A stretch of DNA of 51,995 nt, taken from NCBI RefSeq assembly GCF_012911005.2, contig NZ_WTVS01000042.1, forward strand, positions 1 through 51,995, in the 5' to 3' direction. Below, in pieces: positions 2,502 through 17,894 of the stretch. Source of the DNA: Aromatoleum toluolicum. GTDB lineage: Bacteria; Pseudomonadota; Gammaproteobacteria; Burkholderiales; Rhodocyclaceae. How positions within the stretch are numbered: position 1 is the first letter of the stretch; every line of letters starts with the position of its first letter. The notes under the pieces were generated by a model that saw only the letters and a list, made by a program, of their open reading frames with translations, was not told the origin of the DNA and made no database searches. A program made the translations under genes and the position numbers.

Positions 2502-3557
2502 TCAGCGCAGCATCGCGTTGAGCGCCTCGAGTGCCTTGCTGCCCGGGCACAGATAGGCATCGCCGAGCTGATTCAGCGGCTTCTCCACGGTGTTGAGGTG
2601 GGTATGCATGTCCTGCCCGCTGCTGTCGACGTACAGCAGCCCGGTGACGATCTCGCCCAGCGCCTGACGCTCCTGCAGGTGGTTCATCGCGCCGATGCGG
2701 TCCGAGGGGTCGTAGTCGACGCCCACCTTGCGCAGGTGCAGGATCGAGCCGTCGTGCTGCACGACGCGGCGCAGGCTGCCCGGCGGGTAGGAGGCCTCGA
2801 TCTGCGCCTTGGGCAGGATCACGTCGAGCCGGTTCACCGCCGTGTTGTGCTCGCGCACGTAGTCGTAGCTCTTCGTCGAACCGTTGTGGTTGTTGAAGGT
2901 CACGCACGGACTGATGACGTCGATGAAGGCCGGCCCGCCGTGGCGCAGCGCGCCCTTGATTAGCGGCACGAGCTGCTCCTTGTCGCCGGAGAAGCTGCGC
3001 GCGACATAGGTGGCGCCGAGCTGCAGCGCGAGCGCGGCGAGGTCGATCGGGTTGTCGCTGTTGATGACGCCCTTCTTGCTCTTCGTGCCCTTGTCCGCGG
3101 TCGCGGAGAACTGTCCCTTGGTGAGGCCGTACACGCCGTTGTTCTCGACGATGTAGGTCATGTTCACGCCGCGGCGCATCGCGTGCGCGAACTGGCCGAT
3201 GCCGATCGAGGCCGAGTCGCCGTCGCCCGATACGCCCAGGTACAGCAGGTTGCGGTTCGCCAGCGCCGCCCCGGTCAGCACCGAGGGCATGCGCCCGTGC
3301 ACCGAGTTGAAGCCGTGCGAGTTGCCGAGGAAGTAGTCCGGCGTCTTCGACGAGCAGCCGATGCCCGACAGCTTCGCGACCTTGTGCGGCTCGATGTCGA
3401 GGTCGAAGCAGGCCTGCACGACCGCAGCGCTGATCGAATCATGGCCGCAACCCGCGCACAGCGTCGAGATCGCCCCCTCGTAGTCGCGGCGGGTGAAGCC
3501 GAGCGCGTTGCGCGGCGCGTCGGCCGCGAGGAGTTTGGGTTTGGCGAGATAGGTCAT
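2502..3557 (-). CDS. korB: 2-oxoacid:acceptor oxidoreductase, beta subunit (KorB)
   Basis: This 351-residue protein is the thiamine-diphosphate-binding beta subunit of a 2-oxoacid:ferredoxin/NADP oxidoreductase, probably acting on 2-oxoglutarate. The TPP motif is visible as GDGDS (about 111-115) ending in ENN (about 138-140). Cysteines in LCAGCGHD (34, 37) and GIGCSS (68), with a later Cys in SPCVTF, are the expected [4Fe-4S] ligands. The chosen ATG overlaps the korA stop in an ATGA junction, which indicates translational coupling. It is the last gene of korC-korA-korB. In Azoarcus evansii and Thauera such an enzyme supplies electrons for benzoyl-CoA reduction (recalled knowledge). Substrate choice between 2-oxoglutarate and another 2-oxoacid is inferred. 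Confidence 0.88.
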   Translation of the reverse strand: MTYLAKPKLLAADAPRNALGFTRRDYEGAISTLCAGCGHDSISAAVVQACFDLDIEPHKVAKLSGIGCSSKTPDYFLGNSHGFNSVHGRMPSVLTGAALANRNLLYLGVSGDGDSASIGIGQFAHAMRRGVNMTYIVENNGVYGLTKGQFSATADKGTKSKKGVINSDNPIDLAALALQLGATYVARSFSGDKEQLVPLIKGALRHGGPAFIDVISPCVTFNNHNGSTKSYDYVREHNTAVNRLDVILPKAQIEASYPPGSLRRVVQHDGSILHLRKVGVDYDPSDRIGAMNHLQERQALGEIVTGLLYVDSSGQDMHTHLNTVEKPLNQLGDAYLCPGSKALEALNAMLR

Positions 3558-5410
3558 GAGGCCACCTTGCGCTGGGGTTGTCCGATGGAACTGATCTTGC
3601 GGTCGGTCAGGGCGTCGGCGATCTTGCCGGCGATGAAGCGCGCCGTGATCGGCGATCCGTCGTAGTGCAGCACGCGCACGAGCTTCTTCGGATCGATTTC
3701 GCCTTCGTTGATCAGCAGCGTGCGCAGCTGCGCGCTCTCGTTCTGCTCGACGACGAACACCGCGTCGCGCTCGGCGATGAACTGCATCACCTCGTCGCTG
3801 AAGGGGAAGCCGCGCACGCGCAGCGTGTCGACGTGGATGCCGTCTGCCGCGAGCTTCGCGCCGGCCTCGGCCATCGCGTGCGCCGTGGAGCCGTAGTAGA
3901 TCACACCCACATGCGTGGGCTGCGCCGCCTTCTTCAGGATCGGCGCGGGCACGAGATCCTTGGCCGTGTTGAACTTCCGGCGCAGGCGTTCCATGTTGTA
4001 CACGTAGTCGGTGCCGATCTCGCTGTACTTCGCATACGGGTTGCGCGTCGTGCCGCGCGTGAAGTACGCACCCTTGGTCGGATGGGTACCCGGAATCGTG
4101 CGGTACGGGATGCCGTCGCCATCGACATCGAGGTAGCGGCCGAAGTCCTTGCCGGCCTCGAGTTCGGCGTAGGTCATGAGCTTGCCGCGGTCGTAGCGGC
4201 GGCTGTCGTCCCACTCGAAGGGTGCGCACAGCTGTTCGTTCATGCCGATGTCGAGGTCGGAGAGCACGAACACCGGCGTCTGCAGCCGCTCGGCGAGGTC
4301 GAAGGCCTGCGCGGTGAGGCTGAAGCACTCGTGCGCATCCTGCGGGAACAGCAGCACGTGGCGCGTGTCGCCGTGCGAGGCATAGGCGCACGAGAGCAGG
4401 TCCGACTGCTGCGTGCGCGTGGGCATGCCGGTCGAGGGGCTGCCGCGCTGCACGTCCACGATCACCGCGGGGATCTCGGCGAAGTACGCGAGGCCGAAGA
4501 ACTCCTGCATCAGCGAGATGCCCGGCCCCGAGGTCGCGGTGAAGGCGCGCGCGCCGTTCCAGCCGGCGCCGATGACCATGCCGATCGACGCGAGCTCGTC
4601 CTCGGCCTGCACGATCGCATAGCGCGCGCGGCCGTTGTCCGGGTCGGTGCGGAACTTGCGGCAGTAGCTCGAGAAGGCTTCGATGACCGAGGTCGAGGGG
4701 GTAATCGGATACCAGCCCGCGACAGTGGCGCCGCCATACACGGCACCGAGGCCGCAGGCGCTGTTGCCGTCAATCATGATGCGCTCGCCCACGGCGTCGG
4801 CGCGCTTCACCCGGAGCCCGATCGGACACGGCAGGTGCTGCTTCGCGTAGTCGTAGCCCAGGCGCAGCGCATTGACGTTGGCCTTGATGAGCTGGTCCTT
4901 GCCGCGGTAGCGGTCGACGATGAGCTGCTCGGCCGCGGCGAACTCCATGTCGAGCAGCGCCATCAGCGCACCGACGTACATGATGTTCTTGAACAGCTGG
5001 CGCTGGCGCGCGTCCTCGTATTCCTCGTTGCACATCGCGGTGAGCGGAATGCCCAGCACGGTGATGTCCTCGCGGAACTTCGACGGCGGGAGCGGCTTCG
5101 TCGAGTCGTAGAAGAGATAGCCGCCCGGCTCGATCGCGGCGATGTCGCGGTCCCAGGTCTGCGGGTTCATCGCGACCATCATATCGCAGCCGCCGCGTGC
5201 GCCGAGCCAGCCGGCTTCGGAGACGCGCACCTCGTACCACGTGGGCAGGCCTTGGATGTTGGACGGGAAGATGTTGCGCGGGGCGACCGGCACGCCCATG
5301 CGGATGATCGCGCGCGCGAACAGTTCGTTGGCCGAGGCGGAGCCCGAGCCGTTGACGTTCGCGAACTTGATCACGAAGTCGTTGCAGTGTTGGATCGCTG
5401 GGGTACTCAT
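3554..5410 (-). CDS. korA: 2-oxoacid:acceptor oxidoreductase, fused gamma/alpha subunit (KorA)
   Basis: The 618-residue protein combines the gamma domain (about residues 10-195, with NVNGSGSASANELFARA) and the alpha pyrimidine-binding domain (from about 215, with the diagnostic YPITPS at 234-239). This fused architecture is typical of KorA-type 2-oxoacid:ferredoxin oxidoreductases. Together with KorB it would oxidatively decarboxylate a 2-oxoacid with CoA. It is separated by one base from the upstream korC stop and overlaps korB by 4 nt. The calculated size of about 66 kDa agrees with my recollection of the large subunit of the A. evansii 2-oxoglutarate:NADP+ oxidoreductase. Located in the cytoplasm. 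Confidence 0.9.
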   Translation of the reverse strand: MSTPAIQHCNDFVIKFANVNGSGSASANELFARAIIRMGVPVAPRNIFPSNIQGLPTWYEVRVSEAGWLGARGGCDMMVAMNPQTWDRDIAAIEPGGYLFYDSTKPLPPSKFREDITVLGIPLTAMCNEEYEDARQRQLFKNIMYVGALMALLDMEFAAAEQLIVDRYRGKDQLIKANVNALRLGYDYAKQHLPCPIGLRVKRADAVGERIMIDGNSACGLGAVYGGATVAGWYPITPSTSVIEAFSSYCRKFRTDPDNGRARYAIVQAEDELASIGMVIGAGWNGARAFTATSGPGISLMQEFFGLAYFAEIPAVIVDVQRGSPSTGMPTRTQQSDLLSCAYASHGDTRHVLLFPQDAHECFSLTAQAFDLAERLQTPVFVLSDLDIGMNEQLCAPFEWDDSRRYDRGKLMTYAELEAGKDFGRYLDVDGDGIPYRTIPGTHPTKGAYFTRGTTRNPYAKYSEIGTDYVYNMERLRRKFNTAKDLVPAPILKKAAQPTHVGVIYYGSTAHAMAEAGAKLAADGIHVDTLRVRGFPFSDEVMQFIAERDAVFVVEQNESAQLRTLLINEGEIDPKKLVRVLHYDGSPITARFIAGKIADALTDRKISSIGQPQRKVAS

Positions 5411-5411
5411 C

Positions 5412-7190
5412 TCAGGCCTCCGCGCCGGCTTGCGCGATGTTCACTTGGAATTTCTGCATGTCCCATGCGCCGGTCGGGCAGCGCTCGGCACACATGCCGC
5501 AGTGCAGGCAGACATTCTCGTCCTTGACCATCACGCGCCCGGTCTTGAGCCCCTCGGCGAGGTACAGCGCCTGCTCGGCGTTGTGCGACGGCGCCTTGAG
5601 GCGGCCGCGCAGCTCGTCTTCCTCGCCGTTGCGCGTGAAGGTGATGCATTCGGTCGGACAGATATCGACGCAGGCGTCGCACTCGATGCACAGCTTGGGC
5701 TTGAACACGGTGGCGACGTCACAGTTGAGGCAGCGGGCCGTCTCCGCGCAGGCGAGCTTGAAGTCGTAGCCGAGTTCGAACTCGGACTTGATGTCCTTCA
5801 ACGCCTCCTCGATCGACTTCACCGGCACCTTGCGGCGCGCCTCTTCCGACACCTGGTTGTCGTAGCTCCACTCGTGGATGCCCATCTTCTGGCTCACGAG
5901 GTTCATCGTCGGCGCGGGGCGCTGCGTCAGCGGCAACCCGCGGCAGAAGAGGTCGATCGAGATCGCCGCCTCGTGGCCCTGCGCGACCGCAGTGATGATG
6001 TTCTTCGGCCCGAGCGCCGCGTCGCCGCCGAAGAACACGCGCGGCAGCGTCGATTGCAGCGTCTGCGCATCCAGCACCGGCAGGCCCCAGCGGTCGAACT
6101 CGAGTCCGATGTCGCGCTCGATCCACGGGAAGGCGTTTTCCTGGCCGATGGCGATCAGGACGTCGTCGCATTCCATATGCACATCCGGCTCGCCGGTCGG
6201 CACGAGCGAACGGCGGCCCTTGTCGTCATATTCGGCGCGCACCTTCTCGAACTGCACGCCGGTGAGGCGGCCGTGGTCGTGCGTGAACGCCTTCTGCACG
6301 AGGAAGTTGTGGATGGGGATGCCTTCGTGCAGCGCATCCTCCTTCTCCCACGGCGAAGCCTTCATCTCCTCGAAGCCGCTGCGCACCACCACGCGCACGT
6401 CCTCGCCACCGAGGCGGCGCGCCGAGCGACAGCAGTCCATCGCAGTGTTGCCGCCGCCGAGCACGATCACGCGCTTGCCGATCGAGGTGACGTGGCCGAA
6501 GGCGACGTTCGCGAGCCAGTCGATGCCGACATGGATATGCGCCGCGGCCTGATTGCGCCCCGGGAGGTCGGCGTCGCGCCCGCGGGGGGCGCCGGTGCCG
6601 ACGAAGACGGCGTCCCAGTCGCTCGCCAGCACCTCGCGCAGGCTGCCGATCCAGTGGTTCTGACGCAGTTCGACGCCCAGGTGCTCGACGTAACCGCATT
6701 CCTCGTCGATGACGCTGTCGGGCAGGCGGAATTTCGGGATCTGGCTGCGCATCATGCCGCCGGACGACGACCCGCTGTCGAACACCGTGACCTGATAGCC
6801 CTGCACCGCCAGGTCGCGGGCAACCGTCAGCGAAGCCGGCCCGCCGCCAATACAGGCGATGCGCTTGCCGTTCTTCTTCTCGGGCGGCCGCGGCAGGCGA
6901 TCGCGGATGTCATCCTTGAAGTCGGCCGCGACACGCTTGAGGCGGCAGATCGCGACCGGCTCCTTGTCGACACGCCCCCGCCGGCAGGCCGGTTCGCACG
7001 GACGGTCGCACACCCGTCCGAGAATCCCCGGAAAGACGTTCGAGTTCCAGTTGATCATGTAGGCGGTGGAGAAGTCACCCGCAGCGATCTGCCGGATGTA
7101 TTCGGGCACCGGGGTATGGGCCGGACAGGCCCACTGACAGTCGACGACCTTGTGCAGGAAGTCTGGATTGCTGATGTCGGTCGGTTTCAA
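5412..7190 (-). CDS. korC: NAD(P)H/ferredoxin-linking flavin-iron-sulfur subunit (KorC-like, GltD family)
   Basis: This protein of about 592 residues resembles the small subunit of glutamate synthase with extra ferredoxin modules. N-terminal cysteines (18, 22, 61, 65, 69, 82) match the GltD-type Fe-S region. A dinucleotide fold GGGPAS (115-120) binds FAD and a second, GGGNTA (245-250), binds NAD(P)H. The C-terminus carries two CxxCxxCxxxC clusters (LCIECDACVDIC and VCLHCGMCAERC). It likely passes electrons from KorAB to NADP+ or the reverse. I chose a TTG start at 7190 because AGGAAGG lies 6 nt upstream and homologous sequence begins there; an in-frame upstream start at 7268 would run into the TGCAC array. 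First gene of the operon; the korC name rests on recall of the Azoarcus enzyme. Confidence 0.82.
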   Translation of the reverse strand: MKPTDISNPDFLHKVVDCQWACPAHTPVPEYIRQIAAGDFSTAYMINWNSNVFPGILGRVCDRPCEPACRRGRVDKEPVAICRLKRVAADFKDDIRDRLPRPPEKKNGKRIACIGGGPASLTVARDLAVQGYQVTVFDSGSSSGGMMRSQIPKFRLPDSVIDEECGYVEHLGVELRQNHWIGSLREVLASDWDAVFVGTGAPRGRDADLPGRNQAAAHIHVGIDWLANVAFGHVTSIGKRVIVLGGGNTAMDCCRSARRLGGEDVRVVVRSGFEEMKASPWEKEDALHEGIPIHNFLVQKAFTHDHGRLTGVQFEKVRAEYDDKGRRSLVPTGEPDVHMECDDVLIAIGQENAFPWIERDIGLEFDRWGLPVLDAQTLQSTLPRVFFGGDAALGPKNIITAVAQGHEAAISIDLFCRGLPLTQRPAPTMNLVSQKMGIHEWSYDNQVSEEARRKVPVKSIEEALKDIKSEFELGYDFKLACAETARCLNCDVATVFKPKLCIECDACVDICPTECITFTRNGEEDELRGRLKAPSHNAEQALYLAEGLKTGRVMVKDENVCLHCGMCAERCPTGAWDMQKFQVNIAQAGAEA

Positions 7191-7490
7191 GTGCGTCCTT
7201 CCTGTCTCGGGAAAAGCGTGCGTATGAACGCGCCAATCACTACATGCACCATTGTGCACAAGATGCACTCAAATGCACGCTGCACTGCAACATGTCTCAT
7301 CGGATTCCATGCGCAATACGCTATCCTACATTTTCCGGACAATCCCAGTGCCACGCTTGCGTCTCTTGTCGCATTTACGGACAAGCACCGCGGTCATGGC
7401 CTCGCGAGGAGGACTTCAGGAACGGTTCACCTTCACTCTCGCAGAATGTCTCCCATGCCACCCCGGCATGCAAAGAAACAGGAGACAGCC
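7191..7490. promoter_or_regulatory. Divergent intergenic region (korC promoter / PepSY gene leader)
   Basis: This 300-base region separates korC (minus) from the PepSY-like gene (plus) and must hold both promoters. The korC-proximal half carries the TGCAC repeat array listed separately. I could not single out a convincing -35/-10 pair. No extra gene is supported. Confidence 0.6.
7245..7289. promoter_or_regulatory. Phased TGCAC repeat array (putative operator of korCAB)
   Basis: TGCAC occurs at 7245, 7255, 7264, 7274 and 7281, and TGCA again at 7286. Most are 9-10 bp apart, about one helical turn, and 7254-7259 is the palindrome GTGCAC. The array lies 55-100 bp upstream of the korC start. Operators of the benzoyl-CoA-responsive repressors BzdR and BoxR in Azoarcus are built on TGCA-containing repeats (recalled). 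I infer that a BzdR/BoxR-type protein may act here; the regulator is not encoded in this window. Confidence 0.6.
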
Positions 7491-7766
7491 ATGAACATCC
7501 GCCACTTCACCCTCGCCGCAGCCGCCCTTCTGATCGGGACCAGCGCCTTCGCCGGCCCGAAGTGCACGGCCGCTCCGCAGAACACCCAGCCCGTGGCAAA
7601 CACGCTGCGCACGTTGGTCGACGCGGGCTTCAAGTTCCAGAAGGCCAAGGTCACCAGGGACGACTGCTACGAGCTGAAAGGGACCAACACGGTCGGCGAC
7701 CGCGTCGAGATCTACCTCAACCCGGCCGACGGCACCAACGTCAAGACCGAGACGAAGAAAAGCTGA
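7491..7766 (+). CDS. Small secreted PepSY-domain protein
   Basis: The 91-residue product starts with a classical Sec signal peptide (hydrophobic stretch LAAAALLIGTSAFA, cleavage about residue 21). The mature part has the features of a single PepSY/YpeB-like domain: a helix (VANTLRTLVDAGFKFQKAKV) followed by two short strands (CYELKGTN, RVEIYLNPADG). Two cysteines (in PKCTAA and DDCYEL) could form a disulfide. An SD-like GGAGA precedes the ATG at 7491. It is transcribed divergently from korC and seems to be a single gene. Function unknown; PepSY domains are thought to inhibit or modulate proteases in the periplasm. Confidence 0.75.
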   Translation: MNIRHFTLAAAALLIGTSAFAGPKCTAAPQNTQPVANTLRTLVDAGFKFQKAKVTRDDCYELKGTNTVGDRVEIYLNPADGTNVKTETKKS

Positions 7767-10798: not shown

Positions 10799-11380
10799 TC
10801 ACACTGCCCTTGCACCCGCACCGACACCGTATGGTGCCGGCACCATGTTGACGATGCGCGAGAACAGCGTCCGGAACTCACCGGTCGGCCCCGACCAGGG
10901 ATCCTTGTTGGCCTCGAAAGCGGCATCGATCTCGGCCCAGTCTTCCGCCGCAAGCCCGGTGCGAGCCATCGGGAGAAGCTCGATTTCCTCACGACTGACG
11001 TGGCGCCACGAGGCGGCGAGGTAGGTACGAGCGGTTGCTTCGAACTCGGGAAAGGCTGCGGCGCCCACCCCCTGATAATGGACGAGCGCTCCGCGAAGTG
11101 CGGCCGTGCGGCGCGCGCCCTCGGCGTGATCGGCTTCGAGCTGATCGAGCAGCGCCGCGGATGCGGGGATGCGTTCGCGCATCTTCACGAAGAGATAGTC
11201 GTCCTCCTTCGGGTGATGCAGCTTGTCGGGCACCTGCGTGATGTACTCGATCATCGCCGCGAGCAGCGCGAAGTCGGGCTCGAAACGGCCGTCGCGGATG
11301 GCGTCGAGCACGAAGCCGAAGGCCTGCAGCACGGCGCCCAGCGCGCGGTGTTCGTCGTGGATGATGTCCAGCGCTTTCAT
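10799..11380 (-). CDS. Hemerythrin-domain protein at the end of the gentisate operon
   Basis: The 193-residue product has a four-helix hemerythrin HHE signature: HDEHRALG near the N-terminus, HHPKEDDYLF, then LEADHAEG and HVSREEIELLP. These supply the His and acidic ligands of a di-iron O2-binding site. The start at 11380 (MKALDIIHDEH) is chosen because the first His ligand follows directly and GAGG is upstream. It begins 16 nt after livF on the same strand, so it is probably the last gene of the 3-hydroxybenzoate/gentisate operon. Two enzymes of that operon use O2, so an O2-buffering or sensing role is an inference. C-terminus has no extra domain. Confidence 0.85.
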   Translation of the reverse strand: MKALDIIHDEHRALGAVLQAFGFVLDAIRDGRFEPDFALLAAMIEYITQVPDKLHHPKEDDYLFVKMRERIPASAALLDQLEADHAEGARRTAALRGALVHYQGVGAAAFPEFEATARTYLAASWRHVSREEIELLPMARTGLAAEDWAEIDAAFEANKDPWSGPTGEFRTLFSRIVNMVPAPYGVGAGARAV

Positions 11381-11396
11381 GGGAGGGTCCTCGTGT

Positions 11397-12104
11397 TCAA
11401 TGCGCGGCGACGCCAAGCCAGCTATCGAGCAGTTCGCGGTCATTGCGCAGGGTGGCGCTGTCGCCTTGGTAGACGGCGCGACCGCGTTCGAGCACCAACG
11501 CCTGACGCGTCAGCGGCAGGATCTGGCGGGCATGCTGCTCGACGAGGATCACGGCCATGCCGCCTTCCTCGGTGAGCCGCCGGATGATGGACAAGAGCTC
11601 CTGCACGATCAGCGGCGCGAGGCCTTCGAGCGGCTCGTCGAGAAGCAGGAGTTTCGGGTTCAGCATCAGCGCGCGCCCTATCGCGAGCATCTGCTGCTCG
11701 CCGCCGGAGAGCTCGTTGCCCATGTTCGTGCGGCGTTCCTTGAGACGCGGGAACATCTCGTAGACGCGCTGCAGGTTCCAGTGGCCGGCGGTCGCGACGA
11801 CGCTGAGGTTTTCCTCGACCGTCAGCGACGGAAAGATGTCGCGTTCCTGCGGCACCCAGCCGAGGCCGCGATGCGCGCGGGCGTGCGCGGGGACGATCGC
11901 GAGGTCTTCGCCCGCAAAGCGCAGAACGCCGGAATGCTGGCGCGCGGCGCCCATCAGGGTGGACAGCAGCGTCGTCTTGCCCATGCCGTTGCGGCCCAGC
12001 AGCGCGAGGCTGTCGCCCTCGCCCAGGCTGAAGGAGATGTCCTCCAGCACCACGGCGTCGCCGTAGCCGGCGCGCACGTTTTCGAGTTTCAGCAGCTCAG
12101 ACAC
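11397..12104 (-). CDS. livF: Branched-chain-type ABC transporter ATPase LivF
   Basis: This 235-residue ABC ATPase has a Walker A GRNGMGKTT (37-45), signature LSGGEQQMLAIGRAL and Walker B LLLLDEPLEGL. The C-terminal HARQILPLTRQALVLERG is typical of LivF. The start is a GTG at 12104 that overlaps the livG stop by 8 nt (GTGTCTGA), with GGAGG upstream. It works with LivG on the cytoplasmic face of the LivHM permease. The genes sit inside the gentisate operon, so the substrate is probably an aromatic acid such as 3-hydroxybenzoate rather than an amino acid (inference). Confidence 0.9.
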   Translation of the reverse strand: MSELLKLENVRAGYGDAVVLEDISFSLGEGDSLALLGRNGMGKTTLLSTLMGAARQHSGVLRFAGEDLAIVPAHARAHRGLGWVPQERDIFPSLTVEENLSVVATAGHWNLQRVYEMFPRLKERRTNMGNELSGGEQQMLAIGRALMLNPKLLLLDEPLEGLAPLIVQELLSIIRRLTEEGGMAVILVEQHARQILPLTRQALVLERGRAVYQGDSATLRNDRELLDSWLGVAAH

Positions 12105-12852
12105 TGATCGCCTCCCCCAGATAGACTTCCTTGACCTTCGGATTGTTAGCGATCTCATCCGGCGTGCCGCCGGTGAGGAGCGCGCCGCTCACCAACACCG
12201 AGATGCAGTCGGCGAAGCGGAACACGAGATCCATGTCGTGCTCGATGAGCAGGATCGTCACGTCGCGCGGCAGCGCGGCGATCGTCTCGAAGAGCTCGCG
12301 GCTCTCGGAGGTCGGCACGCCGGCCGCGGGCTCGTCGAGGAGGAGCACGCCCGGCTTCATCGCAAGCGCCAGCGCGATCTCGATCAGGCGCTGTTTGCCA
12401 TAGGCGAGGTTGCGCGTCTTTTCGTGCGCTAGGTCCAGCAGGCGCAGCGTCGAGAGGAGGCTTGCCGCTTCGTCGACCGCTTCGGCGTAGGCGCCGACCG
12501 GTCGCCAGAATCGCGCGCCGATGCCGATGCGTTCATTCACGGCCATCGTCACCGATTCGAGCACCGTCAGGTCCGCGAACAGGCGGTTGATCTGGAAGGT
12601 GCGCGCGAGGCCGCGCTTGACGCGCTGGTGCTGAGCGAGGTGGGTGACGGTGTCACCGTTGAGGATCACCTCGCCGCTCGTGGGTTCGAGGAAGCCGGTG
12701 AGCAGGTTGATCAGCGTCGTCTTGCCGGCGCCGTTCGGGCCGATCAGCGCGTGCCGCGCACCGGCTTCGACGTTGAGGGTGACGTCGTTGGTCGCGATAA
12801 AACCGCCGAATTTCTTGACGAGATTGCGCGTTTGCAGGGCGTAGCTGGTCAT
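12097..12852 (-). CDS. livG: Branched-chain-type ABC transporter ATPase LivG
   Basis: The 251-residue ATPase shows Walker A GPNGAGKTT (38-46), a divergent signature LAYGKQRLIEIALAL and Walker B VLLLDEPAAGV. The LivG-type insertion ARTFQINRLFADLTVLESV is present. It starts at the ATG that overlaps the livM stop (ATGA) and itself overlaps livF. It pairs with LivF to power the LivHM permease. The signature has YGKQR where most ABC proteins have SGGQ-type residues; this is common in LivG proteins and not a defect. Confidence 0.92.
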   Translation of the reverse strand: MTSYALQTRNLVKKFGGFIATNDVTLNVEAGARHALIGPNGAGKTTLINLLTGFLEPTSGEVILNGDTVTHLAQHQRVKRGLARTFQINRLFADLTVLESVTMAVNERIGIGARFWRPVGAYAEAVDEAASLLSTLRLLDLAHEKTRNLAYGKQRLIEIALALAMKPGVLLLDEPAAGVPTSESRELFETIAALPRDVTILLIEHDMDLVFRFADCISVLVSGALLTGGTPDEIANNPKVKEVYLGEAISV

Positions 12853-13850
12853 TGCTTGGTCCTCCCGAGGGCTGCGCCGAGGCGGCGCTGGCCGCCCCTC
12901 AGTCCGCCCATTACGCCATCACGGGCGAAGAGCACGATGACGACGAGCAGCGCGCCGAGCCAGAACTGCCAGTACTGGGGGTTGAGGTCGGAAAGCATGT
13001 GATGCGCCGACATGAACACGATGGTGCCGAGCAGCGCGCCGTAGAGGCTTCCCGAGCCCCCGAGCACGAGGATCAGCAGCAGTTCGGCGGAGCGGTTGAA
13101 GGCCAGGACGTCGAGCGCGACAAACTGCGTCGTCTGCGCAAGCAGCGCCCCGGCGATGCCCGCGTAGGCCGCGCCGATGGTATAGACCGCCGACAGCCGC
13201 GCGTTGACCGGCGCACCAATCGCCGGCATGCGGCCGACGTTGAGGCGGACGCCTTTCAGGCTCAGGCCGAAGGGGCTATGCACGAGCTTCCTCGCGACGC
13301 AGAACAGCGCGAAGAGCACGGCGATCGCGTACCAGTAGGCGGTCTTGCCGTAGAGATCGAACTCGAACTGGCCGAGCACGGGCAGCACTTCCATGCCCTG
13401 CAGGCCATCGACGCCGCCTGTGATGTGGGTGAGCTTGTTCGCGATCTCGTACAGCATCATCGCGACGCCGAGCGTGACCATCAGGCGCGTGAGATCGGCG
13501 CCGCGCAGCACGAGGAAGCTCGTGACATAGCCCAACACTGCCGTCACGAGCGCCGCGGCGACGAGCCCGAGCAGCGGGTCGCCGTAGCCGTGCGCGGCGA
13601 GCAGGCCCGCCGCGTAGGCGCCGAGGCCGAAAAAGGCCGCGTGGCCGAGCGAGACGATGCCGGCATAGCCGAGGATCAGGTCGAGCGACAGGCAAAACAG
13701 CGCGGTGATCGCGATCTGCGTCAGCAGCACGAGGTTGTCGGGGAAGATGAAATAGGCCGCGACGGGGATCAGCCAGAACGCGAGTTCGGCCGGCCGCCAG
13801 CGGTCCGCGCGCGCGATCGGCGCGAGGTCCAGGGTGAGAGCTGCTTGCAT
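12849..13850 (-). CDS. livM: Branched-chain-type ABC transporter permease LivM
   Basis: The 333-residue integral membrane protein has the LivM architecture with about eight to ten hydrophobic segments. It carries the family signatures LDLILGYAGIVSLGHAAFFGLGAY and, near the C-terminus, LILVLGGSGSLYGALLGT. It overlaps livG by 4 nt and begins 10 nt after livH. It would form the inner-membrane channel with LivH. The N-terminus before the first membrane segment is about 25 residues, longer than minimal but normal for LivM. Confidence 0.92.
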   Translation of the reverse strand: MQAALTLDLAPIARADRWRPAELAFWLIPVAAYFIFPDNLVLLTQIAITALFCLSLDLILGYAGIVSLGHAAFFGLGAYAAGLLAAHGYGDPLLGLVAAALVTAVLGYVTSFLVLRGADLTRLMVTLGVAMMLYEIANKLTHITGGVDGLQGMEVLPVLGQFEFDLYGKTAYWYAIAVLFALFCVARKLVHSPFGLSLKGVRLNVGRMPAIGAPVNARLSAVYTIGAAYAGIAGALLAQTTQFVALDVLAFNRSAELLLILVLGGSGSLYGALLGTIVFMSAHHMLSDLNPQYWQFWLGALLVVIVLFARDGVMGGLRGGQRRLGAALGRTKQ

Positions 13851-13860
13851 GGAAGTCTCC

Positions 13861-14718
13861 TTAGCGGGCGGCGCGGCGGCCGAAGAGGCCTTGCGGGCGG
13901 AAGATCAGCATCACGACCATCACCGCGTAGATGACGAAGGCGCCGATCTGCGGGACGTAGTACTTGCCGGCCACATCCACGACGCCGAGGATCAGCGACG
14001 CGACGAGCGAGCCCATGATGTTGCCGCTGCCACCAACGGCGACGACGATCAGGAAGTACACGATGTACTTGACCGGGAAGCTCGGATCGAGGCCCAGCAT
14101 CTCGACGCCGAGCGCGCCACCGAGCCCCGCGAGCGCAGTGCCGAGCGCGAAGGTCAGTGTGAAGATGCGCTCGACGTTGATGCCCACGCCGCGTGCGGCG
14201 CGCGGGTTATCGACCGAGGCCCGCAATTGCGCGCCGAAGCGCGTGCCGCGCACGAGGCGGTTAAGGCCGTAGGCGATCGCCAGGCTCAGCACGACCAGGA
14301 ACAGGCGATAGACGCCGATGTCCAGCCCGGGCAGGTTGATCTGTCCCTGCAGGAATTCCGGCAGCACCATCGGTTGCTGCTGCGCGCCGAAGAAGTAATG
14401 CGCGCCGGCGATCGACATGAATACGAGGCCGATCGAGAACAACACCTGGTCGAGGTGGGACGCCGCGTAGAGGCGGCGGTACAGCGTGCGCTCCAGCGCG
14501 ACACCGACGAGAGCGGTCGCGAGGGCCGCGATCGGCAGCGTGGCGAGGAAGGGCACGCCAGCGCGGTTGAGCAGCGTCACGCAGACGTAGCCGCCCAGCA
14601 TCGCGAAGGCACCATGCGCGAGGTTGACGAAGTTCATCAGACCGAGCGTGACCGATAGGCCGACGCTGATCAGGAACAGCAACATCCCCGAGGCGATGCC
14701 GTCGAAAATGACGGTCAT
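13861..14718 (-). CDS. livH: Branched-chain-type ABC transporter permease LivH
   Basis: The 285-residue membrane protein has LivH features: the N-terminal DGIASGMLLFLISVGLSVTLG, MNFVNLAHGAFAMLGGYV, and VAVGGSGNIMGSLVASLILG. About eight transmembrane segments are visible. GGAGACTCCC precedes the ATG. It follows the binding-protein gene by 75 nt and is followed by livM after 10 nt. The gene order binding protein-livH-livM-livG-livF is the standard order for HAAT-family transporters. Confidence 0.92.
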   Translation of the reverse strand: MTVIFDGIASGMLLFLISVGLSVTLGLMNFVNLAHGAFAMLGGYVCVTLLNRAGVPFLATLPIAALATALVGVALERTLYRRLYAASHLDQVLFSIGLVFMSIAGAHYFFGAQQQPMVLPEFLQGQINLPGLDIGVYRLFLVVLSLAIAYGLNRLVRGTRFGAQLRASVDNPRAARGVGINVERIFTLTFALGTALAGLGGALGVEMLGLDPSFPVKYIVYFLIVVAVGGSGNIMGSLVASLILGVVDVAGKYYVPQIGAFVIYAVMVVMLIFRPQGLFGRRAAR

Positions 14719-14793
14719 GGGAGTCTCCTGTTGCGGTGTTTCCGTGAGGTTCCGGTCGCGAGAGAAGGCGTCAAACCCTCCCCCGCTCGACGC

Positions 14794-15960
14794 TTACTGC
14801 TTGCCCGGATCGCGCAGATCCACGACCTTGTCGAACTCGACGTTCTGCAGCTTGCCGGCGACCTTCTCGACCTTGCGGATGTAAATCGTCTGCACGATGT
14901 CGCGCGTCTGCGCATCGATGCCGATCTTGCCGCGCGGGCTGATCCAGCTCATGCCCTTGGCCGCCGCGACGAACTTGTCGCCGCTCGCGTCGCCGCCGGT
15001 CTTCTCCAGCGTCTTGGCGATGAGCTGCATGCCGTCGTAGCCGCTCACCGACATGTAGTTCGGGCGGTCCTTCGGGTAGGCCTTGTAGTAGGCCTGCACG
15101 TAGGCCTTGTTCTCCGGCGAGTCATGCACTTCGGAGTACTGCAGCGAGTTGATGATGCCCAGCGCGTTGTCTCCGACCGCGTCGAGGATGTCCTCCTCGG
15201 TCAGGTCGCCGGTGGCGATGACGCGGATGCCGGCTTTCGCGAGGTCGCGCTCGGCAAAACCCTTCATGAAGGCGACGGTCTGCTCGCCCGGCGGCACGAA
15301 GAGGAAAACCGCGTCGGGCTTCACGTCCTTGATCTTCTGCAGGAAGGGCGCGAAGTCGGGGTTCTTCACCGGTGTGCGCACTTCGCCGACGATCTCGCCG
15401 CCCGCCGCGGCGAAGGTCTTCTTGAACTGCGCCTCGGCGTCGTGACCCGGGCCGTAGTCCGCGACCAGCGTATAGACCTTGCGGATCTTGTTCTTCGCGG
15501 CCCAGTCGGCCACGGGCGCGGTGATCTGCGGCAGCGTGTGCGAGACGCGCAGGATGTAGTCGGACTTGGTCGTCACCGCGGAGGCGGCGGCGTTCATGAC
15601 GATCATCGGCCTCTTCGCTTCCTTCGACACCGGGGCGGCGGCGAAGGCGGACGGCGTCAGGCCGAAACCGGCGAGGATGTCGACCTTGTCCTTGACGACC
15701 AGCTCCTGCGCAGCGCGCTTGCTGATCTCCGGGGCGACGCCGGTGTCGTCCTTGATGATCAGCTCGACCTTGCGGCCGGCGAAGGTGTCGCCGTTCTGCT
15801 TCAGGTACAGGCGCGCGCCGTTCTCGATCTGCTTGCCGTAGGCGGCGAAGAGGCCGGACATCGGCAGCACCATGCCGATCTTCAGCGGTTCGGCGGCGAA
15901 CGCCGGGGCGGCTGCGCCGAGGGCAACGACGATTGCGGCGACGGTTTTTCTGAATGCCAT
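14794..15960 (-). CDS. ABC transporter substrate-binding protein (LivK family)
   Basis: The 388-residue periplasmic binding protein has a Sec signal peptide cleaved near residue 22 (APAFA-AEP). It then shows the periplasmic-binding-protein type 6 fold, beginning with LKIGMVLPMSGLFAAYGKQ. I chose the ATG at 15960 because AGGAG lies 8 nt upstream and the signal peptide starts there. It would capture the ligand for LivHMGF. Located between maleylpyruvate isomerase and livH in the gentisate operon, it probably binds 3-hydroxybenzoate or a related aromatic acid. That ligand is inferred from context only. Confidence 0.9.
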   Translation of the reverse strand: MAFRKTVAAIVVALGAAAPAFAAEPLKIGMVLPMSGLFAAYGKQIENGARLYLKQNGDTFAGRKVELIIKDDTGVAPEISKRAAQELVVKDKVDILAGFGLTPSAFAAAPVSKEAKRPMIVMNAAASAVTTKSDYILRVSHTLPQITAPVADWAAKNKIRKVYTLVADYGPGHDAEAQFKKTFAAAGGEIVGEVRTPVKNPDFAPFLQKIKDVKPDAVFLFVPPGEQTVAFMKGFAERDLAKAGIRVIATGDLTEEDILDAVGDNALGIINSLQYSEVHDSPENKAYVQAYYKAYPKDRPNYMSVSGYDGMQLIAKTLEKTGGDASGDKFVAAAKGMSWISPRGKIGIDAQTRDIVQTIYIRKVEKVAGKLQNVEFDKVVDLRDPGKQ

Positions 15961-16029
15961 GATGGATCTCCTCATCTCTCTCTTCGGGGGCCGGGGACGT
16001 TCGCCCCCGGCTCTTTATGAATCTTGTGA

Positions 16030-16686
16030 TTACACCTTCGGCGCATCCGGCTGCACGGCGGGTGCCGCGCGGCGGAAGGCGTCGAGTTCGCCGCAGGCGC
16101 GGTCGATCGCGACGATGTTCGGGTACGGCGTCAGATCGACGCTGAAGCGGCGCGCGCTCTCGACCTGCGGGATCAGATACACGTCGGCGAGCGTCGGCGC
16201 GTTGCCGAAGCAGAACGGCCCGCGCGACGTGTCGGCCGCGAGCAGCGCTTCCATCGCGTCGAAACCGGCCGTGATCCACGTCGCGCACCACGCGAGCACC
16301 GCCGCCTCGTCACAGCCCAGCGTTTTCCTCAGGTATTCGAGGACGCGGCGGTTGTTGATCGGGTGGATGTCGCAGCCGACGATCGCCGCCAGCGCACGCA
16401 CGCGGGCGCGGTCCTCGGCGTTGGCCGGAAGCAACGCCGGGGTCGGGTAGCGCTCTTCGAGCCACTCGATGATCGCCGGCGACTGGATCAGGGTGAGGTC
16501 GCCCTCAGTTGCCTCCGATACCAGCGCCGGCACCAGCGCCTGCGGATTCACCGCCTTGAAGGCGGCACCGAGATGCTCCTCGGTGCGCAGGTCGACCGGC
16601 ACATACTCGTAGGCGATGCCCTTCAGGTTCAGCGCGATGCGCAGGCGGTGCGAGGTGCCGCTGCGGAAGAAGTTGTAGAGCTTCAT
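16030..16686 (-). CDS. Maleylpyruvate isomerase, glutathione-dependent (zeta-class GST)
   Basis: The 218-residue protein is a zeta-class glutathione transferase. The N-terminal motif SGTSHRLRIALNLKG (9-23) contains the Ser residues that activate glutathione, and IQSPAIIEWLEERYP is the GSH-binding helix. In the gentisate pathway this class isomerises maleylpyruvate to fumarylpyruvate (NagL/MaiA type). The ATG at 16686 is favoured because CGGAA lies 8 nt upstream; an ATG two codons earlier is too close. It lies 14 nt downstream of the hydroxylase gene. Maleylacetoacetate isomerase activity is the alternative, but the neighbours favour maleylpyruvate. Confidence 0.9.
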   Translation of the reverse strand: MKLYNFFRSGTSHRLRIALNLKGIAYEYVPVDLRTEEHLGAAFKAVNPQALVPALVSEATEGDLTLIQSPAIIEWLEERYPTPALLPANAEDRARVRALAAIVGCDIHPINNRRVLEYLRKTLGCDEAAVLAWCATWITAGFDAMEALLAADTSRGPFCFGNAPTLADVYLIPQVESARRFSVDLTPYPNIVAIDRACGELDAFRRAAPAVQPDAPKV

Positions 16687-16700
16687 CGACATGCTTCCGC

Positions 16701-17894
16701 TCAGTCCTTCGCGAGGCAGTTGTCCGCGTTCCAGCCGTACAGCCACTCCATCGCATCGTAGAAACGCTCCGGCGTGCGGCCCTTCCACAGGTCGTTGCGC
16801 ACCAGGCGCTCGACGCCCTTGGCGTGGTAGATGCGGCCCATCTCGCGCGAGGACAGCACGATGCGCGCGGTACGGGCGATGCGCGAGCGCTGGTACAGGT
16901 CGAAGGCCTTTTCGAAGTCATTGCCATTGACGCGCAGCGCCTCACCCAGCGTCACGGCATCTTCGAGCGCCATGCATGCGCCCTGCGCCATGTATTGCGT
17001 CGTCGGATGCGCGGCGTCGCCCAGCAGCGTCACGCGGCCGAAGGACCACTGGCCGATCGGCTCGCGGTCGGCGGTCGCCCAGCGCTTCCAGCTCTTCGGC
17101 AGGTCGATCAGCTGGCGCGCCTTCGGGCAGATGCCCTGGAAGTAGCTCTGCACCTCTTCGCGGCTGCCTTCGGTGACGCCCCACTCTTCCTTCTCGCGGC
17201 TATGGAAGGTCACGACGACGTTGTACTGCTCGCCGCCGCGCAGCGGGTAATGCACGAGGTGGCAGTTCGGGCCGACCCAGATGCTGGCGGCGTTCCACTG
17301 CAGGTTCTCGGGGAAGTCCTTCTTGTCGATCACTGCGCGATAGACGACGTGCCCAGTCACGCGTGCCGGGTCATTGACGTACTGCGCGCGCACCACCGAC
17401 TTCACGCCGTCCGCGCCGATCAGCGCGACGCCGCGGAAGGCGTTGCCGTGCTGGTCGTACACCGTCACGCCAGCGCTATCCTGCTCGACGCGCTGGACGT
17501 GGGTCGAGGTACGGAATTCGACGCGGCCGGTCTCCTGCGCGCCTTCGAGGAGCGACAGATGCACGTCGACACGGTGGATCACCGCGTACGGGTTGCCGAA
17601 ACGCTTGCGGAACGCTTCGCGGGTCGGGATACGGCCAACGAGGGTCTCGTCGAGCGCATCGTGCATCACCATCTCGTCGGTATACACGGCGCGACCGCGC
17701 GCCTTCTCGCCGACGCCCAGCGCGTCGAAAGCGTGGAAGGCGTTGGGGCCCAGCTGGATGCCGGCACCGATCTCGCCGATCTGGTCGGCCTGCTCCAGCA
17801 CCAGCACCTTGAAGCCCTGGCGCACCAGCGCGAGTGCGGCTGCAAGGCCGCCAATGCCGCCGCCGGCGACGATTACGGGAAGCTGCTCGGTCAT
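16701..17894 (-). CDS. 3-hydroxybenzoate 6-monooxygenase (FAD-dependent)
   Basis: The 397-residue flavoprotein is a class A aromatic hydroxylase. The N-terminal Rossmann motif GGGIGG is at 11-16, a mid-protein LIGADGVKSVVRAQY resembles the DG motif, and GDAAHPTTQYMAQGACMALEDA is the second FAD motif. It converts 3-hydroxybenzoate to gentisate with NADH and O2. The start at 17894 follows GGAGGAG by 8 nt. Its position between fumarylpyruvate hydrolase and maleylpyruvate isomerase supports this over salicylate 1-hydroxylase, its closest alternative by fold. Confidence 0.9.
   Translation of the reverse strand: MTEQLPVIVAGGGIGGLAAALALVRQGFKVLVLEQADQIGEIGAGIQLGPNAFHAFDALGVGEKARGRAVYTDEMVMHDALDETLVGRIPTREAFRKRFGNPYAVIHRVDVHLSLLEGAQETGRVEFRTSTHVQRVEQDSAGVTVYDQHGNAFRGVALIGADGVKSVVRAQYVNDPARVTGHVVYRAVIDKKDFPENLQWNAASIWVGPNCHLVHYPLRGGEQYNVVVTFHSREKEEWGVTEGSREEVQSYFQGICPKARQLIDLPKSWKRWATADREPIGQWSFGRVTLLGDAAHPTTQYMAQGACMALEDAVTLGEALRVNGNDFEKAFDLYQRSRIARTARIVLSSREMGRIYHAKGVERLVRNDLWKGRTPERFYDAMEWLYGWNADNCLAKD

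Follow-up and report, generated by a model that had tools for sequence, protein, structure and literature searches.

The locus described here raises the question of whether the regulator that senses benzoyl-CoA also governs an enzyme that may deliver electrons for benzoyl-CoA reduction. The ATP-dependent type of benzoyl-CoA reductase draws on ferredoxin with a strong reducing power; PMC9973337 attributes the reduced ferredoxin for this reductase to KorAB in the related Thauera aromatica. The window, as the whole analysed stretch of 51,995 bases of Aromatoleum toluolicum DNA is called below, carries the genes korCAB, and a dense array of TGCA repeats lies just upstream of korC. An earlier note on this DNA had suggested that the array may tie the Kor enzyme to a regulon of the BzdR/BoxR type. 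The features of the locus are as follows, in window positions.

2502..3593 (frame as scanned), minus strand: korB, beta subunit; Pfam TPP_enzyme_C on the longer frame, NCBIfam matches of the PorB_KorB type below the curated cut-offs.
3554..5410, minus strand: korA, 2-oxoacid:acceptor oxidoreductase alpha subunit; Pfam POR_N and POR, TIGR03710 above cut-off.
5412..7190, minus strand: korC, FAD/Fe-S subunit of the NAD(P)H type; Pfam Fer4_20, Pyr_redox_2 and Fer4_7, TTG start at 7190-7188.
7196..7203, minus strand: ribosome-binding site of korC, AGGAAGGA; shared by nine of the ten aligned genomes, with one base different in L091.
7245..7289, no strand assigned: TGCA array with six half-sites (7245, 7255, 7264, 7274, 7281, 7286), the putative BzdR/BoxR operator of korCAB.
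7245..7258, no strand assigned: proximal TGCA-N6-TGCA palindrome, TGCACCATTGTGCA; score 15.4 on the bzd matrix, second in the window.
7264..7277, no strand assigned: middle TGCA-N6-TGCA palindrome, TGCACTCAAATGCA; score 18.4 on the bzd matrix, first in the window.
7281..7289, no strand assigned: distal TGCA-N1-TGCA, TGCACTGCA, with the spacing of the OR1 type; imperfect in 4 of the 10 array-bearing genomes.
7491..7766, plus strand: divergent small protein with a start resembling a signal peptide (by eye) and neither a Pfam nor an NCBIfam match.

The array is separated from the TTG start of korC by 54 bp and from the start of the divergent gene by about 200 bp. A longer korC frame (5412..7268) opens at a GTG within the array, and the position of the short start is kept in all ten array-bearing genomes, as TTG in nine and as GTG in one; the short start, preferred in the earlier note, is therefore favoured. 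The query used to search for korC began at 7193, one codon before the TTG, and many matches begin at query residue 2. A promoter scan of 7180-7500 found no sigma-70 consensus promoter. An inverted repeat, CTTGTC-N9-GACAAG, is located upstream of the array at 7365-7385; among the ten array-bearing genomes its GACAAG arm is kept in nine and the TGTC of the other arm in eight.

On the plus strand TGCAC starts at 7245, 7255, 7264, 7274 and 7281, and the sixth site, at 7286, is TGCA, which confirms the five TGCAC copies and one further TGCA described in the earlier note within 45 bp upstream of korC. The steps from start to start measure 10, 9, 10, 7 and 5 bp. The statement that the copies are mostly 9-10 bp apart holds for three of the five steps and fails for the last two, and the proposed phasing on one face of the helix applies to the first four half-sites (10, 9, 10 bp) and not to the last two. 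The gaps between successive TGCA are N6, N5, N6, N3 and N1, which gives two N6 palindromes followed by an N1 pair, and this palindrome spacing is more telling than the phasing. Judged from the relatives described below, the conserved unit is a palindromic TGCA at N6 or N1 spacing and not TGCAC, because some same-strand half-sites there end in T or G (TGCAT, TGCAG). The window contains 251 TGCA in total; outside the array no stretch of 45 bp has more than three. Among 200 first-order Markov copies of the window, not one matched the six of the array; the highest count was five, in one copy. Only two TGCA-N6-TGCA pairs are present in the whole window, both inside the array, so that three sites (N6, N6 and N1) are packed into 45 bp of one promoter region.

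The A. toluolicum genome (6.16 Mb in 289 contigs, contamination estimate 4.84) contains three genes with a shikimate-kinase domain, and the products of two exceed the cut-off of NF006015, a model named 'anaerobic benzoate catabolism transcriptional regulator'. A boxR-like gene precedes boxC (TIGR03222) and a bzdR-like gene precedes bzdN (TIGR03190); the two proteins are 51% identical. PMC6449761 reports that BoxR and BzdR bind TGCA repeats 1, 6 or 15 nt apart, with ATGCACTATAGTGCAT as the main variant and with multiple sites per promoter. Together with PMC6678401, this bears out the statement in the earlier note that both regulators bind TGCA-based repeats. The array spacings N6, N6 and N1 fall within the reported set, with N5 and N3 separating the sites, and the proximal site, read as ATGCACCATTGTGCAC, differs from the main form at 3 of 16 positions (by-eye count). 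At the PN promoter of the bzd operon, dimers of BzdR repress and benzoyl-CoA releases them, according to PMC6678401; BoxR is reported to act at the bzd promoter as well (PMC6449761, PMC4424350). The intergenic region between bzdR and bzdN of A. toluolicum has TGCA pairs at N15, N1 and N6, as described for PN of Azoarcus sp. CIB in PMC6678401. N6 sites were found downstream of bzdR in all 16 bzdR-bearing genomes of the genus, and within 400 bp upstream at 11 of 14 boxR loci (14 of 17 such loci were taken).

Two TGCA-N6-TGCA sites no more than 30 bp apart (the double-N6 pattern) occur at a single place in the 6.16 Mb genome of A. toluolicum, at korC; the bzd promoter of this organism is missed by the pattern because its N6 sites are at least 63 bp apart. 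Among 17 genomes of the genus, 15 have a match, at 18 distinct places, which were assigned by matching their coordinates to the korC and bzdR/boxR loci. Nine places are directly upstream of korC (G000, G044, G167, G201, G202, G205, G206, G208, G209), six are between bzdR and bzdN (G100, G137, G199, G200, G204, G205), and three are outside kor and bzd (G044, G206 and G203; L128 and L132 are among these). The reversed control of the pattern gave five matches in three of the 17 genomes. A motif derived from the literature thus finds mainly korC and bzd promoters (15 of the 18 places). Across the family, 32 of 199 genomes match the double-N6 pattern. The single-site pattern ATGCANNNNNNTGCAY was found at 15 places in the A. 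toluolicum genome, with more than one site only at korC (two) and in the bzd promoter region (three). The pattern TGCACNNNNGTGCA, with six places in that genome, one of them kor, proved too narrow to capture bzd operators; the double-N6 pattern and ATGCANNNNNNTGCAY were therefore used instead.

Two further sites of the BzdR-like form are recorded here in their own right. Contig C15 of A. toluolicum carries a second bzdN-type gene for benzoyl-CoA reductase (L182:1614-2825; TIGR03190, 853 bits), and ATGCACTCCGTTGCAT is located at L182:1501-1516, about 170 bp before its ATG. This gene may be a further member of the BzdR regulon, or it may be foreign DNA, given the contamination estimate of 4.84. 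At L195:1501-1516, ATGCACGACCCTGCAT stands directly before a frame for a TupA-like tungstate-binding protein (below the NCBIfam cut-off). We know of no link between tungstate uptake and BzdR.

The comparison with bzd and box operators that the earlier note had proposed was made with position matrices. The bzd matrix rests on 29 distinct N6 sites, all taken from bzd promoters, and includes no kor site. Over all positions of the window it ranks 7262 (18.4) first and 7243 (15.4) second, followed by a third at 12.6, so that a matrix made from bzd sites alone places the two N6 sites of the array at the head of the window. The highest score in the 220 bp ahead of korC ranges from 11.6 to 21.2 in 15 of 16 genus genomes, or in 14 of 16 when G199 is represented by its closest copy, L144, and is 5.8 in G203. 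Scores do not exceed 6.8 before five other korC copies of the genus and 2.8 before 24 korC genes from outside it. On the bzd matrix the distinct kor sites reach 15.4-21.2. They reach 9.8-14.6 on the box matrix, which comprises only 9 distinct sites, scores its own sites at 14.6-25.5 and scores bzd sites as low as 9.4. A comparison of spacers and flanks, given TGCA-N6-TGCA, gave nothing firm because 989 kb of background holds just six N6 sites, of which zero to three attain the scores of the kor sites. The base preceding TGCA is G in 8, A in 5 and C in 3 of 16 kor half-sites; A is found in 39 of 58 bzd and C in 10 of 18 box half-sites. The matrix scores lean towards BzdR before BoxR as the probable binder, though the preceding base matches neither bzd nor box.

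Conservation was assessed with one korC copy counted per genus genome. korC is present in 16 of 17 of these genomes (E ≤ 1e-100); five other copies (L144, L148-L151) were left out of the count. For G199 the counted copy is L147 (86% identity) and not the best copy L144 (88%), because the upstream DNA of L147 matches that of the other single-site genomes. The array is kept in 10 of the 16 korC-bearing genomes, 54 or 55 bp before korC: the nine with the double-N6 pattern at korC, and G192, which has TGCG in one half of the middle N6 pair and in one half of the N1 pair. In an alignment of these ten genomes, 21 of the 24 TGCA bases are invariant; the corresponding figures are 14 of 124 for the DNA upstream and 27 of 51 for the leader. 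The array may go back to a single origin, as the ten genomes are related. One imperfect N6 site (TGCA-N6-TGCG), TGCACCATAGTGCG, which resembles the proximal palindrome of the window, is found further upstream in G100, G137, G199, G200 and G204, and also in A. buckelii; in G199 it is present at one of two korC copies and absent from L144, the copy most like the query. G203 retains a remnant of two TGCA at N5 only. The earlier note had named beforehand an absence of the repeats upstream of kor orthologs as the outcome that would speak against the link; within the genus, ten arrays, five single sites and one remnant were found at the 16 loci.

The korC of A. buckelii (L010) is 87% identical to that of the window, the closest named korC among the matches listed, and its upstream region is identical to that of G200 over 229 bases. 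In A. buckelii a codirectional hemerythrin gene lies upstream of korC and a similar imperfect N6 site is kept before korC, so the site seems tied to korC and not to the divergent gene. A hemerythrin-domain gene also occurs in the window, after a cluster of branched-chain-type ABC transporter genes (10799-16788). The further korC copies L144 and L148-L151 (in G199, G167, G206, G208 and G100) are without the array, and their kor operons may be controlled in another way. bzdR (75-100% identity) is present in 16 of the 17 genus genomes; G207 has a boxR-like gene only and is also the sole genome without korC.

Outside the genus, 24 of 36 korC-bearing genomes were scored, these being the loci left from a set of 30 once six of the genus were set apart, and the array was found at none of the 24 loci. 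A BzdR-like protein of 65-77% identity is encoded in three of the scored genomes (G037, G095, G078) and a family member of 49-57% in nine more. No TGCA occurs within 330 bases upstream of korC in G037, G095 or G078. At the loci compared, the conservation expected in relatives is seen within the genus and not beyond it, also in genomes that have korC together with a BzdR-like protein. The kor-BzdR link looks like an acquisition within the genus, since the latter three genomes have both genes and no upstream TGCA.

The kor array resembles the PN promoter, with its operators OR1-OR3 for BzdR, in having several TGCA palindromes with N6 and N1 spacing in the same organisms. Unlike PN, it has three sites in 45 bp and no N15 pair of neighbouring TGCA, and the kor promoter has neither an AcpR/FNR box nor a recognisable sigma-70 promoter; the best match to an AcpR/FNR-like box at the 16 kor promoters has at least three mismatches, as against one mismatch in the three PN promoters scanned. 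korC and bzdR are located on different contigs of the A. toluolicum genome. The array shares TGCA repeats with N6/N1 spacing with the BoxR operators of the box divergon, from which it differs in the rarity of a preceding C (3/16 half-sites, box 10/18) and in a poorer fit to the box matrix. The motif ATGCACTATAGTGCAT and the multiple sites also recall the BoxR/BzdR regulon of 32 Betaproteobacteria as given in PMC6449761; there, however, a 2-ketoacid:ferredoxin oxidoreductase (COG4231) is placed under BenR/AphS and not under BoxR/BzdR, and a search of its main text found no word that starts with 'kor'.

The most probable reading, with a probability of roughly three in four, is that the array is an operator of BzdR, the benzoyl-CoA-responsive repressor of the XRE/shikimate-kinase-like type, possibly shared with its paralog BoxR, and that korCAB would stay off until benzoyl-CoA is present. 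By analogy with PN, we infer that three dimers on the adjacent N6, N6 and N1 sites, overlapping the korCAB promoter or just upstream of it, would keep these genes off, and that benzoyl-CoA would release the dimers from the array. Production of KorABC, a 2-oxoglutarate:ferredoxin/NADP oxidoreductase, would thereby coincide with that of the bzd-encoded benzoyl-CoA reductase, which uses reduced ferredoxin that KorABC may provide in A. toluolicum. Because the array matches BzdR/BoxR sites and is conserved in relatives, Kor is probably switched on by the signal that also switches on the ring-breaking pathway. The regulon membership suggested in the earlier note is supported by the spacings, by the presence of both regulator genes, by conservation in the genus and by the ranking on the bzd-only matrix.

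The main competitor, which is unlikely, has BoxR, the paralog from the aerobic box pathway, as the main binder, so that kor would follow benzoyl-CoA under oxic or microoxic conditions. A boxR-like gene is present in the same genome, BoxR is reported on TGCA repeats and at the bzd promoter (PMC6449761 and PMC4424350), the kor promoter is without the AcpR box of the bzd promoter, and the bases preceding the kor half-sites depart from the A of bzd. However, the kor sites score higher on the bzd matrix than on the box matrix with its 9 distinct sites, C before TGCA, commonest at box, is rare at kor, and G207, the only genus genome with boxR and without bzdR, has no korC. It is very unlikely that the array is bound by some other regulator that recognises TGCA, for instance a XylS/BenR-type AraC protein. 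XylS and apparently BenR recognise TGCA-N6-GGNTA and CopG sites contain TGCA, as PMC6678401 states, and for Thauera sp. MZ1T and Dechloromonas aromatica PMC6449761 predicts control of the other 2-ketoacid:ferredoxin oxidoreductase (COG4231) by BenR and AphS. Against this, the conserved unit is a palindrome of TGCA, like that of the bzd promoter, and GGNTA was found six bases after TGCA in none of 12 readings (six sites, both strands).

An equally small chance is given to the array serving the divergent small gene at 7491 and not korC. The intergenic region is common to both genes in A. toluolicum, but the array is nearer to korC (54 against about 200 bp), and the hemerythrin gene takes the place of the divergent gene in A. 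buckelii, where the imperfect N6 site still precedes korC. Hardly credible is an origin of the repeats as a functionless product of chance or slippage. Short repeats do arise by slippage, and among the loci compared only one genus has the array intact; on the other side are the absence of six TGCA in 45 bp from all 200 Markov windows, the persistence of the array in ten genomes amid diverged upstream DNA, and the genome-wide coincidence with the pattern of the bzd promoter.

Under the preferred reading, control by BzdR, korCAB would probably be an addition to a regulon already described, and this placement is well supported by comparison. A search of article main texts, few of them from subscription journals, found no paper that places kor under BzdR or BoxR, in line with the earlier note, which knew of no described case. 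A bolder version is doubtful: the central-metabolism enzyme KorABC would have been captured by the benzoyl-CoA sensor within the genus through a compact three-dimer operator without the oxygen-linked AcpR box, electron supply would be set by the pathway intermediate alone, by both BzdR and BoxR, and cells could pre-load ferredoxin reduction during their use of the aerobic box route. If the array is indeed a kor operator, the BzdR regulon reaches beyond the bzd cluster. An operator common to the reductase operon and kor would, if true, make it testable how the supply of reduced ferredoxin is matched to demand.
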